Positions 1 through 28,762 of a stretch of 64,000 nt of DNA are shown in pieces. The translations under genes were made by a program, and so were the position numbers. The first letter of the stretch is position 1. The number at the start of each line of letters is the position of its first letter. This DNA comes from Vulcanisaeta souniana JCM 11219 (GTDB taxonomy: Archaea > Thermoproteota > Thermoprotei > Thermoproteales > Thermocladiaceae), in contig NZ_AP026830.1 in assembly GCF_026000775.1 (NCBI RefSeq), positions 2,193,056 through 2,257,055 of the forward strand, read 5' to 3'. The notes below the pieces were generated by a model. The model searched no databases. It was not told where the DNA came from and worked only from the letters and a program-made list of their open reading frames with translations.

Positions 1-174
1 TTGCTTGTGTTTAATGTTACGTACCCAATCTCGGTTAATTACAACTATGACAGACCTGGGACATACGTCATTAATTACACATGCGGCGCCAGGAATGAAT
101 TGTTAAGTAGCGACGTTGTGCTTAATGGAAAAATTGAAATACTCCCTATGTACATATATGTGTATTATGGGTGA
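1..174 (+). CDS. C-terminal part of a secreted or surface protein (cut by window edge)
   Basis: The frame is open from the first base to TGA at 172-174 and has no start in view. The 57 visible residues are rich in Asn, Tyr, Val and Thr, typical of extracytoplasmic archaeal proteins, with one Cys. The next gene starts 4 nt later and its Shine-Dalgarno GGTGAT overlaps this stop, so the two are in one operon. By its neighbours it is probably a pilin-like or pilus-associated protein; nothing more can be said from the fragment. Confidence 0.5.
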   Translation: MLVFNVTYPISVNYNYDRPGTYVINYTCGARNELLSSDVVLNGKIEILPMYIYVYYG

Positions 175-178
175 TTGA

Positions 179-1021
179 ATGAAGACTACGCCCAAGCCCA
201 TCCATACCCACTGGAGGCACGGACAAAGTGACGTATTGAGCACTGTTATCCTAATTGCCGTGATAATGGTCGTAAGTGCCATATTTATAGTCTTCTCCAT
301 GGTGCAATTTGGTAATGAGGTTTCTCAATCATCCATTGAGTACATTGCCTCGTTTCTCATAAATGTTGCAGATGATATTGATACATTCATGTTCGTTCCA
401 GGCGCAATACTTACGTATCAATTACCGAATACAAATTATGGAACATATAATTTCGTAAACTCATTATGTAACGTATCCATTAACGCGGCTTCGAATAAGG
501 TCATTAATGAAGTATCCGGCGGATTAGTATACGGTGTACCACCCACATATTTCTCATTGCCACCTGGGTTTAGTACGGTGTGGAGGGGTTCGACGTTTAA
601 TGGCATACCCGCATCATCACTAAACGACTTCTCATTGATCGTCAGCTACCAAACGCACGTCTTGATGGGTACATCAATGGCTGTTCTACAGTTTGGTTAT
701 GATAGCCTCAATGGTGCTGGCTATGGCACTTACTTGGTCATGGTTCCTAGGGTCATGGTTATAAATGGTACTGGACCTAGCGGGATTGGTTATGTGTACA
801 TACCAGTACTTAACCTAGTCAGTAATCAGGGTAGGGGTAAGTTAATCATTAGCATTCAGAACATTAGTTCTCAGTCAATAGTTCTTAAAAATGGTGGCGC
901 ATTGGAGATTAGCGAGGTTTGCTACTTCGGCAATGGCGTTAAGCCAATAAGCTCAAGCGCCGTTGTGGTTGGTAATACCGTGTACGTAACCATAGTTCAA
1001 ATAGGTGTTGGCTTTGGGTGA
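179..1021 (+). CDS. Archaeal type IV pilin-like secreted protein
   Basis: 280 residues. The N-terminus has a basic stretch ending RHGQSD (about residues 13-18) followed by a long hydrophobic helix (about 19-45). This is the layout of a class III signal peptide, cleaved after Gly by a prepilin peptidase, with the helix forming the filament core. The rest is Ser/Asn/Gly/Tyr-rich and probably extracellular. The ATG at 179 has a GGTGAT Shine-Dalgarno overlapping the upstream stop. The next gene overlaps this stop. The role in a pilus or surface filament is inferred from the signal and the operon; the C-terminal domain is not recognised. Confidence 0.6.
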   Translation: MKTTPKPIHTHWRHGQSDVLSTVILIAVIMVVSAIFIVFSMVQFGNEVSQSSIEYIASFLINVADDIDTFMFVPGAILTYQLPNTNYGTYNFVNSLCNVSINAASNKVINEVSGGLVYGVPPTYFSLPPGFSTVWRGSTFNGIPASSLNDFSLIVSYQTHVLMGTSMAVLQFGYDSLNGAGYGTYLVMVPRVMVINGTGPSGIGYVYIPVLNLVSNQGRGKLIISIQNISSQSIVLKNGGALEISEVCYFGNGVKPISSSAVVVGNTVYVTIVQIGVGFG

Positions 1022-1026
1022 TGGGC

Positions 1027-1584
1027 ATGGACACGCTGGCCTTTATAATAATGACCGTGGCCCTCATGGTTCTGGTTATAGCCTTCACCTGGTACATGAA
1101 TTACTACATATCCATGAACCTGCTCAACACGGCAAATTACATAACTTCACTGGTAACGTCAGCGTTGAAGCATGAGACGGAGACCGCCATATCAATAGCC
1201 TCCTTCAGTGATGTTACTGGGAGTTTCAACTTCACTTTTATGCTGCCCACATCTTCATTCTCAACCCAGGGACTTGCCATAAACTACTACATAACCTTAT
1301 ACCCAAGGAGTGAAAGCAGCATGATAGAGCTTATGGCTAACATAACCGTGGCGGCAAGCCTAGGCCCCATAACGAGAGTAATGAGGACGACAACCCTACT
1401 CTACTCATCAACACAGCCATATAAAATTACCGCTTATAACTGCGTTAATAGAAATCGTCCAGTAAACTTAGTAAATTCCACATGGTTATATCAAGTGCCA
1501 GTGAATTTATCGAACTATAACTGTACCTGGAATAGCACTGATATTCAATCGGGCTATGCGGTAATAAGTATAAGCAAGGGTTAG
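1027..1584 (+). CDS. Membrane-anchored pilin-operon protein
   Basis: 185 residues from ATG 1027, chosen because GGTGAT at 1017-1022 lies 4 nt before it; starts at 1018 (GTG) and 1021 (ATG) are also open. A single hydrophobic helix (about residues 3-24) has no basic stretch before it, unlike a standard prepilin signal. The rest is a Ser/Thr/Asn-rich extracytoplasmic domain with several N-x-S/T sequons and two Cys near the C-terminus. It is translationally coupled to the pilin-like gene before it and is the last gene of that operon. Exact function unknown; a minor pilin or anchoring subunit is a reasonable guess. Confidence 0.5.
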   Translation: MDTLAFIIMTVALMVLVIAFTWYMNYYISMNLLNTANYITSLVTSALKHETETAISIASFSDVTGSFNFTFMLPTSSFSTQGLAINYYITLYPRSESSMIELMANITVAASLGPITRVMRTTTLLYSSTQPYKITAYNCVNRNRPVNLVNSTWLYQVPVNLSNYNCTWNSTDIQSGYAVISISKG

Positions 1585-9803: not shown

Positions 9804-9891
9804 GCGGGGGTGCCCGAGCCAGGTCAAAGGGGACGGGTTCAGGTCCCGTTGGCGAAGGCCTGCGTGGGTTCAAATCCCACCCCCCGCACCA
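9804..9891 (+). tRNA. tRNA-Leu (anticodon CAG), CCA encoded
   Basis: Class II tRNA. Acceptor stem GCGGGGG (9804-9810) pairs with CCCCCGC (9881-9887); anticodon stem-loop ACGGG-TTCAGGT-CCCGT places CAG at 9840-9842; a long variable arm follows; T arm GTGGG-TTCAAAT-CCCAC. Discriminator A and encoded CCA end at 9891. No intron is seen, notable in a lineage rich in tRNA introns. The integrase remnant within 200 bp downstream suggests this tRNA was used as an integration site. Confidence 0.95.
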
Positions 9892-18658: not shown

Positions 18659-19099
18659 CTAGACATCAATATTATTACCCACGGCATAATCAAACAACTT
18701 AATGGCAATTCTCAGTAAGTCCTTATACAACGCCTTAGCCAGGATTTCGCGGAGAACATCGATAGAGACCTGCGAGTAATTATGCACTAGAACATTCCTG
18801 AAGCCTATCATCCTCCTAAAGATCCTCGAGTCATCACCACTTATAACACCGGCCTGGCTCAGGTAAATAGGTACCTCTGAGTACGTCGATGGCGCCTTAA
18901 GCCCTCTCTCAACCATTATGTGCGAGCCCATGTCGATTAATGCCTGTATTGCGACCTGTAACATATGTAACACGGCGTTCAGCAGTACGTAATCATTAAG
19001 TAATTCATTAATGCCATACCTGGAGACCAGGGTGTCAACCTCCTCAACATTCCTCTTAATAACCGCCAACAAATCACCTAGTCGACCCACGCAACTCAC
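18659..19099 (-). CDS. hepT: HEPN-domain toxin, HepT family
   Basis: About 146 residues, all-helical. The HEPN catalytic motif R-x4-6-H is present as RNVLVHNY (about residues 101-108), matching HepT RNases of the MNT-HEPN toxin-antitoxin type; Tyr after His is the residue AMPylated by MntA in characterised systems. The start is uncertain (TTG 19102, GTG 19099 or GTG 19090), with a GGAGG at about 19107-19112. It overlaps mntA by about 26 bp, so the two are co-translated. Confidence 0.75.
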   Translation of the reverse strand: MSCVGRLGDLLAVIKRNVEEVDTLVSRYGINELLNDYVLLNAVLHMLQVAIQALIDMGSHIMVERGLKAPSTYSEVPIYLSQAGVISGDDSRIFRRMIGFRNVLVHNYSQVSIDVLREILAKALYKDLLRIAIKLFDYAVGNNIDV

Positions 19100-19538
19100 C
19101 AACCCTCCTCCTAATTAATTCATTAAATCCATTAACCCTTAAAAATACTTGGTAATCACCGTAGAGACTAACCGCCCTAACAACCTCCCTAATGAATACC
19201 CCACGGTCACCAATGTAGACAGGCACACCCTGAGCTAAAGCCCTAAACCTAACCTCAAAGGGCAGTAGTGGGTCATTAAGCACGGCAACATCAACCCCAT
19301 CCTCAGGAACACCCAATGCCAGGGCAAGGTCGCTAATGAACATGGGTAATACATCAATAACGTTAACGTCATCCCTAAACAATACTGCAATATCCACATC
19401 ACTAAGGGGACCAAACACCCCATAAACCAGCGAGCCGTAAAGCACAGCAAACTGAATAAAATCCTTATAATAATTATTAGTAATTACACCCCTAACAACA
19501 CCCAACACCCTAAGGCACTGCTCACTACATGCATTCAT
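19074..19538 (-). CDS. mntA: MNT-family nucleotidyltransferase antitoxin
   Basis: 154 residues. The minimal nucleotidyltransferase motif GSLVYGVFGPLSDVDIAVLF (about residues 34-53) has the GS...D-x-D arrangement, and a third acid is in VDVAVL. In characterised pairs MntA adds AMP to HepT and so silences the RNase. Leaderless by a TATA box ttttaaat at about 19560-19570. A small, mobile defence or stabilisation module in the island. Confidence 0.75.
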   Translation of the reverse strand: MNACSEQCLRVLGVVRGVITNNYYKDFIQFAVLYGSLVYGVFGPLSDVDIAVLFRDDVNVIDVLPMFISDLALALGVPEDGVDVAVLNDPLLPFEVRFRALAQGVPVYIGDRGVFIREVVRAVSLYGDYQVFLRVNGFNELIRRRVGELRGSTR

Positions 19539-20840: not shown

Positions 20841-21092
20841 TTAATGTGAAGAAGCCCCTCCAGTCCTCGTGACTTGTTGAACATTAACCCTCAGCACGTG
20901 TTTATGCCTATCATAAACCTGCTTCTCAGTCCTAGCGAAATCAACCCCCTCCCCCCTCTTGAACTGCTGCATTCTTAACCAGTTCACTTCGTTCCAACAC
21001 TTGGCTGTTGCTATAGCCAGTTCCTTTAGCTTCTCGTGGGTGTTCTTGTCCACGATGAGTTTAACTATGTTAGTCCTCTTCACTGTTGGCAT
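20841..21092 (-). pseudogene. tnpB: tnpB N-terminal fragment, frameshifted
   Basis: The N-terminal 70 residues match the archaeal TnpB start: VKLIVDKNTHEKLKELAIA, then CWNEVNWLRMQQF and a Tyr/Lys-rich stretch. After VNVQQVTR the frame shifts (about 20870); the correct frame continues as DWRGFFTLIKEKRE and then joins the right-end sequence (EADLLSVLKGG). The RuvC nuclease centre and zinc finger are missing, so it cannot act as an RNA-guided nuclease. Confidence 0.65.
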
Positions 21093-21273: not shown

Positions 21274-21743
21274 TTGTCATTCTTCTTGTCGACTAGTGAC
21301 GTGGGCTTGGCATCGGCCATAGCCAATGATTTGAGGGCGGCTGGGTTCAACGTCAGTGTTCATAACCGTGATGGTGAGTTCGAGATATACGTGCCCATCA
21401 GGACACTAGGCGTATCCTGAGGATGCTCGGCGTCTATGAGAGGTTTTATGGCGAGCCGAGGAGGTTGCCGAGTGTTGATGATGTGGTTGGCGTGCTGAGG
21501 AGGTATGGCATCAGGAGGTGGCATGTGCATGAGGCGAGGGCTCGTAATGGCAATGGCTATGAGTACACCGAGGCCTGTGTATTGATCTCCCTGGGTAATT
21601 CCGGGGAGGCCAGGAGGCTTAGGGATGAGCTTGTTAGGCTTGGTGTTAGGGTTCGTAAGGTTGTTTGGGGCACCGTGATTATATGCAACGGTGAGGATAG
21701 AGAATTGCTCATTCACGCCCTTAGTGCCATGGCGCCTCAGTAG
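21274..21743 (+). pseudogene. Truncated, frameshifted gene, possibly of a Thermoproteales repeat family
   Basis: From 21274 the frame reads LSTSDVGLASAIANDLRAAG then FEIYVPIRTLG and stops at 21418-21420; shifting frame continues as RRILRMLGVYERFYGEPRR, SVDDVVGVLRRYGIRRWHVH and ends ELLIHALSAMAPQ. Together this is one protein with a single frameshift near 21405. It resembles PaREP-type multicopy families of this order, from memory only. The 5' end is cut exactly at the IS left-end hairpin. Confidence 0.45.
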
Positions 21744-25358: not shown

Positions 25359-26633
25359 GTGGTTGTTGTATTAAGGCGGTTGTCGCTTGAGGATTATGGC
25401 CCCTTTACTAAGCTTGATGTCGAGCTTGGCGATATCACGATATTCGTTGGTAGGAATAACACGGGCAGAAGCACGGCACTGGAAGCCATTACATTACTCC
25501 TCTCATCAATCAACAACTTTAGGGTAATAACATCCAGCATTGACGTGCTTTCGAACCTTGGGTTAAGGAGCAGGTACTTAATTAATTTGAGGAGTAATAA
25601 AGGTGTTGCGGTTGTTTCCGGCGATGTGGTTAGCCAGGGCATGAAGCATAGTATTGAGGTGATGGTAATCAGGGGCATTAATGGGCTGGGTGATCTCCGT
25701 GATAACGCGGTACGAGAGATCATTAGATCAATTACTGAATTAACACCGACATCTCAGAAAATACTTATGGAGGCATTTCATCGAGTATTACGGGAACGTA
25801 AGGATGGTAAGGATATTACTGAGGCGTTTAAGGAGTTTGTTGATGGTGTGATTTCCGTACTTAATAATCGTGTAGATGATTTGTTAGTGAATGCCGTTTT
25901 CGTAAGTACGTATATTGATGGTGAATTACTCAATGCTGCATTACTACCCTTAAGTGGAGTAAGGGTTAGTGAAGATATAATTGATAAGTTAAAGGAACTA
26001 GGATTGAGTTCTTCCGAAGCCAGGAGATTATTGAATATTCAATTGGGGAAAGTTATTTCGGGAGGTCGGATTATTCTCACTAGTAAAAAGTTGAATGTTG
26101 AACCAATACGTGTTCAGCACTTGTCGTTACACCCATTTTTAATAGATGATTTACCCCCTGATAAGCAGACGGAATTGATTGACCTATTGAGGAAGGAGAT
26201 TCGTTATTTCTATGATTATAGGGGTGGGCAGGTTATTCTTAATTTTGATGGTAGTAGGGTCTCCGTACCCTACGCCCTGATGGGTGATGGCTTTAAGGCC
26301 TTGGTTAGGATGCTCGGTCTCATTGTCATGGGCGTTGACGTTACCCTGATTGATGAACCAGAGGCTCATTTACACCCTGGCTTTATGGAGGTGATTACTA
26401 AGTACATGGTTGAGCCCAGGTTCCTTGATCGTATTCAGTTCGTGATGGCAACACAGTCACTTGAGTTCCTCGACTACTTGCTTAGAGCGGCTGAAAAAAG
26501 CGGTGTCCTTGGTAGGGTTAGGCTTGTTAGGCTCTACTTGATGCCTAATGGTAGTATTGATTATGAGCAGTTGAGTGGTGAGGAGGCGTATGAAGAGATG
26601 GATGAACTCAAGTCGGACCTCAGGGGTCCCTAG
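25359..26633 (+). CDS. ABC-type AAA ATPase, OLD/AriA-like, with Arg in Walker A
   Basis: 424 residues from GTG 25359, with a TATA ttttaact about 26 nt before. RecF/SMC-like: N-terminal FGPFTK-type strand then Walker A GRNNTGRST (about residues 32-40), where the usual Lys is Arg. The long middle is helical. The C-terminal lobe has a signature-like MGDGFKALVRM, Walker B VTLIDEPEAHLHP (about 334-346), and TQSLEFLDYLL where the switch His is replaced by Ser-Leu. The next gene, a TOPRIM protein, overlaps by about 32 bp. Family members act in phage defence (OLD, PARIS), but this one is uncharacterised. Confidence 0.75.
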   Translation: MVVVLRRLSLEDYGPFTKLDVELGDITIFVGRNNTGRSTALEAITLLLSSINNFRVITSSIDVLSNLGLRSRYLINLRSNKGVAVVSGDVVSQGMKHSIEVMVIRGINGLGDLRDNAVREIIRSITELTPTSQKILMEAFHRVLRERKDGKDITEAFKEFVDGVISVLNNRVDDLLVNAVFVSTYIDGELLNAALLPLSGVRVSEDIIDKLKELGLSSSEARRLLNIQLGKVISGGRIILTSKKLNVEPIRVQHLSLHPFLIDDLPPDKQTELIDLLRKEIRYFYDYRGGQVILNFDGSRVSVPYALMGDGFKALVRMLGLIVMGVDVTLIDEPEAHLHPGFMEVITKYMVEPRFLDRIQFVMATQSLEFLDYLLRAAEKSGVLGRVRLVRLYLMPNGSIDYEQLSGEEAYEEMDELKSDLRGP

Positions 26634-27213
26634 CCATGCTTTGATTATACTATGTGAGGGTAAGCACGATTATGAATTTATTAAGGAATTGATCAGTAAG
26701 ATAAACGTTAAGTGTGACGTTAAGGACCAGGGTCCCAGGGATAAGGACTTCATTATTGGGCACGTCGTGGATGGCAAACGGCTTTCTTACGTTCCTATCA
26801 TCATTGAGGGTGGTAAGGATAGGCTTGATGGTAATGTTAGGCTCCTAATTAGTAAGTTACGTTCCGTCCATGGATCATCTACCTGGGTGTTGATTCTGCG
26901 TGATTCCGACTCTAATGATGCAGATAGCGCCTTCGATAAATTAAGGCGTGATATTGTCAGCCTCATTAATAACCCCTCTAAGTTTTTGCTATATAAACCG
27001 AGCATGGATTGCGGGCAAGGAATCCGTGTGGGGTCCTTCGTGTACTATGACTGTGACTTGAAATATATGGATGGCGTTGTCCATTTTCGGTTTATCTTTG
27101 TGGTTCCATCTCTGGAGGTTTTTCTTCGTAATTATGAGTATGTTAATGATGATTCAAGACTTCATTATGCCATTGATAAAGCCCTTAGTGATCCAGGAAT
27201 AGTAATGCAGTAG
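26602..27213 (+). CDS. TOPRIM-domain protein (OLD/AriB/DUF3226-like)
   Basis: About 203 residues from ATG 26602; GTG 26575 and ATG 26590 are alternatives. The start overlaps the ATPase end in another frame. TOPRIM motif: IILCEGKHDYEFIKELI (catalytic Glu, then HDY), and LILRDSDSNDADSA, the D-x-D metal pair. A C-terminal beta-rich segment (VHFRFIFVVPSLEVFL) follows. TOPRIM domains cut or nick DNA or RNA in OLD and PARIS systems. In single-chain OLD proteins the ATPase and TOPRIM are fused; here they are separate genes, like AriA-AriB. The tail is shorter than most AriB. Confidence 0.65.
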   Translation: MNSSRTSGVPSHALIILCEGKHDYEFIKELISKINVKCDVKDQGPRDKDFIIGHVVDGKRLSYVPIIIEGGKDRLDGNVRLLISKLRSVHGSSTWVLILRDSDSNDADSAFDKLRRDIVSLINNPSKFLLYKPSMDCGQGIRVGSFVYYDCDLKYMDGVVHFRFIFVVPSLEVFLRNYEYVNDDSRLHYAIDKALSDPGIVMQ

Positions 27214-27280
27214 ATATCTTTAGGGGTGCAGTCGGTTCATGCTTGTTTGATGAGTATTAGGGTTTTGGTTTCTTTTGTTT

Positions 27281-28762
27281 TTATGTTTCCCTTACCTTGA
27301 TTAGTATTGGTTTTCTCAGTGGGTTCATTAGGCCTGCCACGAAGAATTCCCTAGTGCCTAATTGGGCTAGGGTTGCCTCGCTCACGTCAGCCAGGTCCAT
27401 GTATGCGGCTATCTCCCTGAGATCACCCTGGGCGCTTAACCTGCTGAAGAATATTGTGCCGAGGTTAGCCCTAATGCTTGCTCTAATGTCCCTGGTTATT
27501 CTTTGGCTTGCTGTGATTAGTGATAGGCCCCACTTGCGGCCTTCCCTGGCTGTGGTCTCGATGGCGTCGCCGCAGATAGTCCATTCATTCTCAGGTACGT
27601 AGTTCTGAGCCTCATCGATGACGAAGACTAGGTCTAGCGGTGACTTGCTGGCTTTAACGAGTCTCCAAGCTGCATCAATGACGTCGGCAACAATTGCCTG
27701 CTTAACCACTAACTCAGGGTCAAGGCTCAGGTCAATGGTCACTAGGCTTGAGCTTAATGCCCTGTTGATTATGTCCATGGGCGACAGAGACCTCCTGTTG
27801 AGTTCCTCGAAGAATTCATTCTCTATGAAGTAGTCAATGAAGAGCCTGGCCTTCTCCACAGTGGAGTCCCTGGCGCCCAGTCCCCTCATGCTATCCACCA
27901 AGTGCCTTATGAAGGACATCTTTTCCCACTTCACGGGCTGGCCTACCTGCCTTGACTGATTGTCAAGTTGCGGATCCAATAATTGCGCTGATTGTTGTTT
28001 CTTCATTTTCTTGTCGCTGCTCACGTACGTGATTACGGCTACCTCCAGGTACTCACCGAAGGTCTGCCAATTAAGCCTAGCCTTCTCGGCAATGACAGAG
28101 GCTATTGTGGGTGGTGAGATGGATATCTCCTTAGACGTGATAACTCTATCCTTAAAATACGGCGTGTAATCCACACCACTGTGATCAAAGATGATCACGT
28201 GCTTCCCAACTCTGATCAACTCCTCAACTAATACCTTAACGAGCCTGGATTTACCCACGCCAGTGGCCCCAAATATGCCGATGTGCTGATTGGCAAAGCT
28301 GGCGTCTAGGTTAATGGGCCAACCACTGTACTTATGATTGCCGACATGTATTGATAAGTTGGGCTTCACGTAATCATTGAGGAACTTGCCATCCCTAATC
28401 ACAAAGACCTTAGAGCCTGGTGTTGGTACATGCCTAACCTCAAGCACGGACTTAGTACTCGGTTTTAAAGCTGCGTAGAGCCTAACCATGGCCGACGTGA
28501 AGGGCATGAGTATTGTTTGGTCAAGGACCTCAGGCCTGTCAACGAAGGGTGACCTAACCCTGTCCCTAATTAGTGGTTCGAGTTTTGTCACATTCCTAAT
28601 CACGCCGAGGAGTAGTTCATCTTCGAGGGATGGATCATTAATAATGACGAGTTGTTCCTCTAGGGCCATGTTTTCGTTCTTCTTATAGAATTGAATGGGG
28701 ACTAAACCAACCGATGCACCGCTTGTGGTTATCCCAATCTCTATGCAACACCTATCAAGCAT
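27281..28762 (-). CDS. herA: HerA-like hexameric DNA translocase ATPase
   Basis: 493 residues. N-terminal HAS-type beta barrel (residues 1-120), then HIGIFGATGVGKSRLVKVL (Walker A, about 167-185), IIFDHSGVDY, a long helical insert with RHLVDSMRGLG, Walker B LDLVFVIDEAQNYVPE (about 382-397), and the sensor/arginine-finger region ASQRITRDIRASIRANLG. It is the DUF87 HerA family, which pairs with NurA and Mre11-Rad50 in end resection, or with nucleases in defence; none of those genes is adjacent here. It ends 68 bp from the convergent TOPRIM gene. Confidence 0.85.
   Translation of the reverse strand: MLDRCCIEIGITTSGASVGLVPIQFYKKNENMALEEQLVIINDPSLEDELLLGVIRNVTKLEPLIRDRVRSPFVDRPEVLDQTILMPFTSAMVRLYAALKPSTKSVLEVRHVPTPGSKVFVIRDGKFLNDYVKPNLSIHVGNHKYSGWPINLDASFANQHIGIFGATGVGKSRLVKVLVEELIRVGKHVIIFDHSGVDYTPYFKDRVITSKEISISPPTIASVIAEKARLNWQTFGEYLEVAVITYVSSDKKMKKQQSAQLLDPQLDNQSRQVGQPVKWEKMSFIRHLVDSMRGLGARDSTVEKARLFIDYFIENEFFEELNRRSLSPMDIINRALSSSLVTIDLSLDPELVVKQAIVADVIDAAWRLVKASKSPLDLVFVIDEAQNYVPENEWTICGDAIETTAREGRKWGLSLITASQRITRDIRASIRANLGTIFFSRLSAQGDLREIAAYMDLADVSEATLAQLGTREFFVAGLMNPLRKPILIKVRET

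Follow-up and report, generated by a model that had tools for sequence, protein, structure and literature searches.

Does an archaeal ATPase gene overlapped by a TOPRIM-like gene and faced by a HerA-type helicase gene represent a split defence system of the PARIS or OLD kind, and are the unusual motifs of its ATPase a property of that system? The locus in question lies in a stretch of 64,000 nucleotides of Vulcanisaeta souniana JCM 11219 (contig NZ_AP026830.1, positions 2,193,056 to 2,257,055 of the forward strand), hereafter the window. The answer that we favour, with moderate confidence, is that the window holds a displaced and probably degenerating copy of an accessory module, made of an ABC ATPase and a TOPRIM protein, which circulates in Vulcanisaeta and more sparsely in other Thermoproteota, and whose intact copies would be of a defence type. 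The window genome is a single-contig assembly of 2,432,148 bases, and whether the window copy is intact is judged from this one assembly. It is called G000 below; other G handles denote compared genomes and L handles compared loci. Four of these genomes (G017, G019, G020 and G001) are drafts, and frame breaks found there were not used as evidence.

The open reading frames and motifs named in a preliminary description of this DNA are real: an ATPase of 424 amino acids with the Walker A motif GRNNTGRST is overlapped by a gene with the motifs EGKHD and RDSDSND (Table 1). Numbered from the ATG at 26590, the second protein reads CEGKHDYEF (E23, D27) and RDSDSND (D105, D107), and these four acidic residues are invariant in alignments of the intact Vulcanisaeta relatives and G001. 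Since related pairs recur in other Vulcanisaeta genomes at about 50-97% protein identity, with a further pair about 30% identical in another family of the order, neither the pair nor its motifs can be attributed to chance. The general plan suggested at the outset, a split ATPase-TOPRIM pair of OLD/PARIS type, was supported. The ATPase passes the Pfam cutoffs for AAA_21 (E=2.5e-17; 64.3 bits against 27) as well as AAA_15 (E=2.5e-12; 47.6 bits against 32.1). Among the PADLOC models, the ATPase matches AriA (3.7e-19) and PDC-M38A (3.7e-18), the GajA profiles scoring lower than the latter. A profile comparison with the PDB returned OLD, PtuA, AriA (1.2e-5) and GajA among the matches, these being the closest solved relatives. 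The AF2 model of the ATPase itself (pLDDT 48) is too poor for use.

Two departures from the canonical ATPase motifs had been noted at this locus, and they proved to be of very different kinds. The arginine of the Walker A motif had been taken as a possible property of the system. It is a private mutation of the window genome, AAA to AGA, and not a family trait. The codon is AAA in G015, whose ATPase is 97% identical to the window copy, and AAG in G017, G019, G020, G001 and the remnant of G022; the other Thermoproteales ATPases with a readable Walker A motif all have lysine, the outcome that the preliminary description had itself named as refuting this point. The loss of the switch histidine, on the other hand, was correctly read, but it is no individual oddity. 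Glutamine occupies this position in G000, G015, G017, G019 and G020 as well as in L021, L024, L025 and L032, whereas G001 has histidine. Wherever the two motifs were both readable in further Thermoproteales ATPases, an EEPE Walker B goes with THS and a DEPE Walker B with ATQS, and the glutamine switch is therefore a subfamily feature paired with aspartate at Walker B. Glutamine is thus fixed in the Vulcanisaeta clade and in a second group of Thermoproteales pairs. It suggests that ATP hydrolysis is weak or absent and that nucleotide binding is what is read. In the OLD protein of Thermus scotoductus (Ts OLD), K34A or H310A each abolishes the ATPase, and in P2 OLD, K37A and H332A abolish the lethal effect (PMC7049728). 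Impairment by Arg37 is accordingly likely though not certain, arginine being a milder substitution than alanine.

The second protein can be called TOPRIM-like on the basis of its motifs and of several weak but concordant profile matches. The best PADLOC match is PDC-M38B (1.9e-5), over about half the profile; further weak matches to the mad4, retron RT-Toprim and HEC-01B models fall mostly within residues 16 to 128 or so. In an AF2 model built from three sequences (pLDDT 67), beta strands and alpha helices alternate in a way that would fit a TOPRIM fold. The C-terminus of the window protein is shortened. Where G015 reads DPRNNDVVDIFKSLLGSCLFDE, beginning with DPRNNDVVDIF, the window reads DPGIVMQ followed by a stop, and the remainder is legible in another frame.

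The overlap of the two genes is a recurrent design in Thermoproteales. In G026, G028, G035 and G042, a TOPRIM-like gene (EGDDDE...FDCDAP) overlaps the end of a DEPE/ATQS ATPase gene; its frame is +1 and, in G028, interrupted. The loci L021, L024, L025 and L032 make up a second Thermoproteales pair family, in which a DEPE/ATQS ATPase accompanies a TOPRIM protein with EGDDDE, FDCDAP and a cysteine-rich C-terminus, and the +1 overlap is found in all four. In three of them (L021, L024 and L032), the ATPase has the same C-terminal DLR end before the overlapping TOPRIM gene, in parallel with the Vulcanisaeta pairs; a PADLOC comparison of the TOPRIM proteins of these three gave no match (E up to 0.01). 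A separate observation concerns G001 (L049:10290-10420), where the TOPRIM frame lies at -1 relative to the ATPase, at a run of five G, which would be due to an error of one base in the assembly or else to -1 frameshifting.

The helicase gene had been presented as a HerA facing the pair across 68 bp, and thus as a potentially meaningful neighbour. The two are indeed convergent, tail to tail, with a gap of 67 bp; the functional significance of this arrangement did not survive synteny analysis. By its profile matches the protein is HerA-like, of the DUF87 family (E=2.7e-22), and not the canonical HerA repair helicase, the score for the NCBIfam HerA_Thermprot equivalog being 63.5 bits against a cutoff of 800. 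The gene is found in 10 of the 12 genomes of the genus and evolves slowly, with a ratio of nonsynonymous to synonymous divergence (dN/dS) of 0.05. The pair or its remnant lies at a locus unrelated to that of the HerA-like gene in G015, G017, G018, G019 and G020. The homology of the window with the pair loci of other genomes stops in blastn comparisons at about 27268, and homology with the HerA loci begins at about 27288, which places a rearrangement junction between the pair and its neighbour. In G015, G016, G017, G019 and G020, the HerA-like gene is found within about 0.9 kb of the sequence corresponding to window positions 1-1583, whereas in the window about 25.7 kb separates these flanks. 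A role as functional partner was consequently rejected, adjacency being limited to the window genome and to G022, which has a remnant of the ATPase and one of the orphan gene c8 beside HerA. Because these remnants are kept there, the move that joined the pair to HerA is common to the G022 lineage. The HerA-like helicase is a bystander brought next to the pair by chromosome rearrangement. It was also observed that the 25.7 kb or so of the window between about 1584 and 27287 separate sequences which are about 0.8 kb apart in G015, and that parts of this segment match at least two separate places of G015 (about 0.48-0.50 Mb and 1.41 Mb), which makes it a composite rearrangement.

If the helicase is a chance neighbour, the native context of the pair must be sought elsewhere. 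In G015, G017, G019 and G020, and as a remnant in G018, the pair stands directly upstream of c8, GINS and MCM, in a variable cassette. The gene c8 (L043:11679-12074 in G015) encodes an orphan protein of 132 amino acids that matched no Pfam or PADLOC family, and its start lies within the final codons of the TOPRIM gene. It occurs in 7 of the 12 Vulcanisaeta genomes, once as a remnant, and has three matches in the sister-genus genome G003. G016 has c8 and no pair, G025 has neither, and the GINS-MCM site of the window genome itself is likewise devoid of both. The window genome does not possess c8 at all, the gene having been lost at the junction near 27268.

Distribution and divergence both indicate that the module is mobile. 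Matches to the TOPRIM profile were obtained in 10 of 81 genomes across the class and in 5 of 300 genomes sampled in the phylum, and a diverged pair with EEPE/THS motifs and a separate start is present in G053, from another family of the class. The pair is intact in G015 and reduced to remnants in G018, G022 and G005; G018 and G005 retain only the C-terminal part of the TOPRIM protein, which reads RSSGSDD in G018. The frameshifts of G017, G019 and G020 were not taken as signs of decay, as core genes of G017 and G020 show similar small indels and G019 is a draft of the same kind. Between the window genome and G015, the ATPase gene has a synonymous divergence (dS) of 0.046, the TOPRIM gene one of 0.139, and other genes of the surrounding block range over 0.17-0.42. 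The corresponding values are 0.60 for GINS and 0.97 for MCM, and at the HerA locus they reach 1.0-1.9 for five of six core genes (1.22 for the HerA-like gene), the sixth, a small gene, being at 0.375. As the dS of the pair and its block is below that of most core genes, they were exchanged laterally and recently. No relatives of the pair were found in viral contigs or in plasmid records.

The block itself fits the decayed, defence-type neighbourhood previously proposed for the pair: it contains HEPN and nucleotidyltransferase (MNT) genes as well as gene remnants (Table 1), and the corresponding block of G019 and G020 contains genes that read as VapBC-like. A short open reading frame on the reverse strand (20841-21092) resembles, by reading only, the start of a TnpB-type transposase gene. 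Further away, a tRNA gene, Leu-like by reading (Rfam tRNA, 52.4 bits), is located at 9804-9888 on the forward strand; it explains an element of about 88 bp at this position, shared with all relatives searched, that was at first considered as a repeat.

Table 1. Features of the ATPase-TOPRIM pair and its surroundings, in window coordinates.
Feature	Position	Strand	Basis or remark
OLD/AriA-type ABC ATPase (AAA_21/AAA_15), 424 aa, GTG start	25359..26633	+	Open reading frame list; Pfam, PADLOC and PDB profile matches
Walker A, GRNNTGRST	25449..25475	+	Lys37 to Arg, codon AGA at 25467-25469; private to the window genome
Walker B region, VTLIDEPEAHL	26340..26372	+	Asp-Glu intact; conserved across all homologues
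H-loop switch position, Gln366 in ATQSLEF	26454..26456	+	Motif comparison with relatives
Overlap of ATPase and TOPRIM genes	26575..26633	+	ATPase ends SDLRGP-stop (CCC TAG); TOPRIM frame +1
Putative TOPRIM-like nuclease	26590..27213	+	207 aa from first ATG 26590; frame opens at 26575 (first possible GTG), 212 aa
1-nt deletion site shortening the TOPRIM C-terminus	27190..27213	+	Alignment with G015; three-frame translation
Rearrangement junction	27214..27288	.	blastn against G015/G017/G018/G019/G020 loci; start of c8 cut
HerA-like (DUF87) helicase, core gene, outside the pair	27281..28762	-	DUF87 profile
HepT-like (HEPN) and nucleotidyltransferase genes, in laterally exchanged block	18659..19538	-	PF01934 5.7e-25; PF18765 2.7e-8
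Remnant of a gene of 528 aa in G015, weak LAGLIDADG-like matches	21423..21743	+	Comparison with G015; profiles

Taken in this way, the reading of the module as a defence-type system is strengthened but unproven, the arguments being its patchy distribution, the frequent remnants, the nearby HEPN/MNT genes and the low dS indicative of recent lateral exchange. By analogy with PARIS and Gabija, an ATP-binding sensor may control a metal-dependent nuclease. In intact copies, the ATPase would bind nucleotide and, in complex with the TOPRIM protein, hold or position it; an infection cue or a change in nucleotide would switch the ATPase, upon which the TOPRIM protein could cut nucleic acid by two-metal chemistry at E23, D27, D105 and D107, with antiviral or abortive defence as the outcome. 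A comparable control is described in PARIS, in which a hexamer of AriA sequesters AriB until a phage protein releases it (PMC12409363). The copy in the window is probably impaired, because Lys37Arg coincides there with the C-terminal frameshift of the TOPRIM gene and with the loss of the overlapping third gene c8.

Several observations weigh against this picture of a decaying nuclease module. The match of the second protein to DUF3226 (E=5.3e-4) falls short of the Pfam cutoff, a fold search of the PDB with its moderate-confidence model gave no TOPRIM relative, and profile comparison with two other Thermoproteales TOPRIM groups was not significant. The one-nucleotide deletion could be a sequencing error, and the lysine-to-arginine change may preserve ATP binding. 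Finally, the dN/dS of 0.31 for the ATPase between G000 and G015 reflects purifying selection somewhere between both copies, and a "dead" module is not proven. No literature on DUF3226-TOPRIM proteins was found in the library searched.

By its sequence, the pair follows the general plan of OLD and PARIS without being PARIS, and without being OLD as regards gene fusion. The nearest catalogued kind is PDC-M38, a PADLOC candidate likewise made of two adjacent genes, both of whose profiles were matched, the window ATPase up to the C-terminal end of PDC-M38A; the TOPRIM match is, however, the weak and partial one given above, and these E-values were judged without PADLOC's own cutoffs. A search of the library gave no paper that names PDC-M38, and the candidate is apparently unvalidated. 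OLD proteins of class 1 (Thermus scotoductus, P2) also combine an ABC ATPase with a TOPRIM nuclease; the spacing of E398/E402 and D453/D455 in P2 OLD (PMC7049728) equals that of ExxxD and DxD in the window protein, in which the ExxxD/E and DxD catalytic motifs of classes 1-3 are thus present. OLD is nevertheless a single polypeptide, whereas the window pair consists of two overlapping frames, fused only in the draft G019, and where Ts OLD has K34 and H310 the window ATPase has Arg37, private to it, and Gln366, common to its clade. Gabija, a nucleotide-regulated nuclease (PMC12796447), includes in GajA (OLD class 2) an ATPase that is likewise thought to read the nucleotide and not to hydrolyse it (PMC12796447), but GajA is a single fused protein whose partner is the helicase GajB; in the window the helicase, HerA-like, is a chance neighbour, and a reading of the frames between 20 and 34 kb of the window gave no UvrD-like gene.

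What, then, could the module be? A tentative possibility is a distinct defence system of archaea, split into ATPase and TOPRIM genes and moving laterally, whose sensor, with its glutamine switch, would not hydrolyse ATP and whose TOPRIM nuclease would be other than AriB. It is unlikely, by comparison, that Arg37 and Gln366 jointly form a deliberate non-hydrolysing nucleotide sensor in the window copy: Gln366 is fixed in the clade, and GajA has reportedly lost ATP hydrolysis, probably, while keeping binding for regulation (PMC12796447), but Arg37 is restricted to the window genome, where it accompanies the TOPRIM truncation and the loss of c8. A housekeeping role on the host chromosome is similarly improbable. 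The model here would be Cran1, an OLD-family nickase of Saccharolobus required for cell-cycle progression, which is also an archaeal ATPase-TOPRIM nuclease and acts apparently outside defence (PMC12796447); the one hint in favour is the position of the pair or its remnant directly upstream of c8-GINS-MCM in five genomes. Cran1 is, however, a single polypeptide, vertically inherited in a clade that follows the species tree, and apparently essential, since its gene is undeletable, whereas the split pair is patchy and mobile, absent or remnant in several relatives, recently exchanged, and missing from the GINS-MCM site of the window genome.

The proposal of a true archaeal PARIS (OLD class 4), with an AriA-like sensor and an AriB-like tRNase, is decidedly doubtful. 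Both are split into an ABC ATPase and a TOPRIM protein encoded by separate, adjacent genes in an operon, with the same kind of metal-binding acidic residues, and the AriA profiles of PADLOC and the PDB are matched as reported above. The PADLOC AriA model matched here, however, is equal to Pfam AAA_21 in length and aligned range and is apparently generic; the AriB/DUF4435 models matched neither the window protein (E up to 10) nor five relatives (E up to 1), which removes the PARIS membership previously suggested at the sequence level; and the window pair has glutamine for the switch histidine. An older survey gave its PARIS counts for "bacterial and archaeal genomes" (PMC9122126); in one phylogeny classes 3 and 4 are bacterial only (PMC12796447). 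Least probable of all is ribosomal frameshifting at the overlap (at CCC-TAR in Vulcanisaeta, at the five-G run in G001), by which part of the two proteins would be made as one OLD-like fusion. In its favour, a +1 frameshift is possible at the CCC TAR of the ATPase stop in G000, G015, G017 and G020 (window 26620-26640), where the TOPRIM gene is at +1; G019 has one uninterrupted frame of 624 codons; and in G001 the stretch from the upstream stop to the TOPRIM catalytic Glu is free of ATG, GTG and TTG. Against it, all five Vulcanisaeta copies retain an ATG in the TOPRIM frame, overlapping ATG starts of the usual kind are present in other pairs, and the G019 and G001 drafts possibly miss one base of a G-run.

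At this locus, a single mutated copy together with a neighbour present by chance suggested a system that does not exist. The window copy is unsuitable for study, and the intact copy of G015 is the one to be used. Little is known of archaeal defence outside CRISPR and restriction, in Thermoproteota above all (PMC12988326), and in a recent phylogeny the split OLD systems were exclusively bacterial (PMC12796447). A mobile split pair with a consistent glutamine switch would offer a testable archaeal case of whether an OLD-type system can work by nucleotide binding alone.

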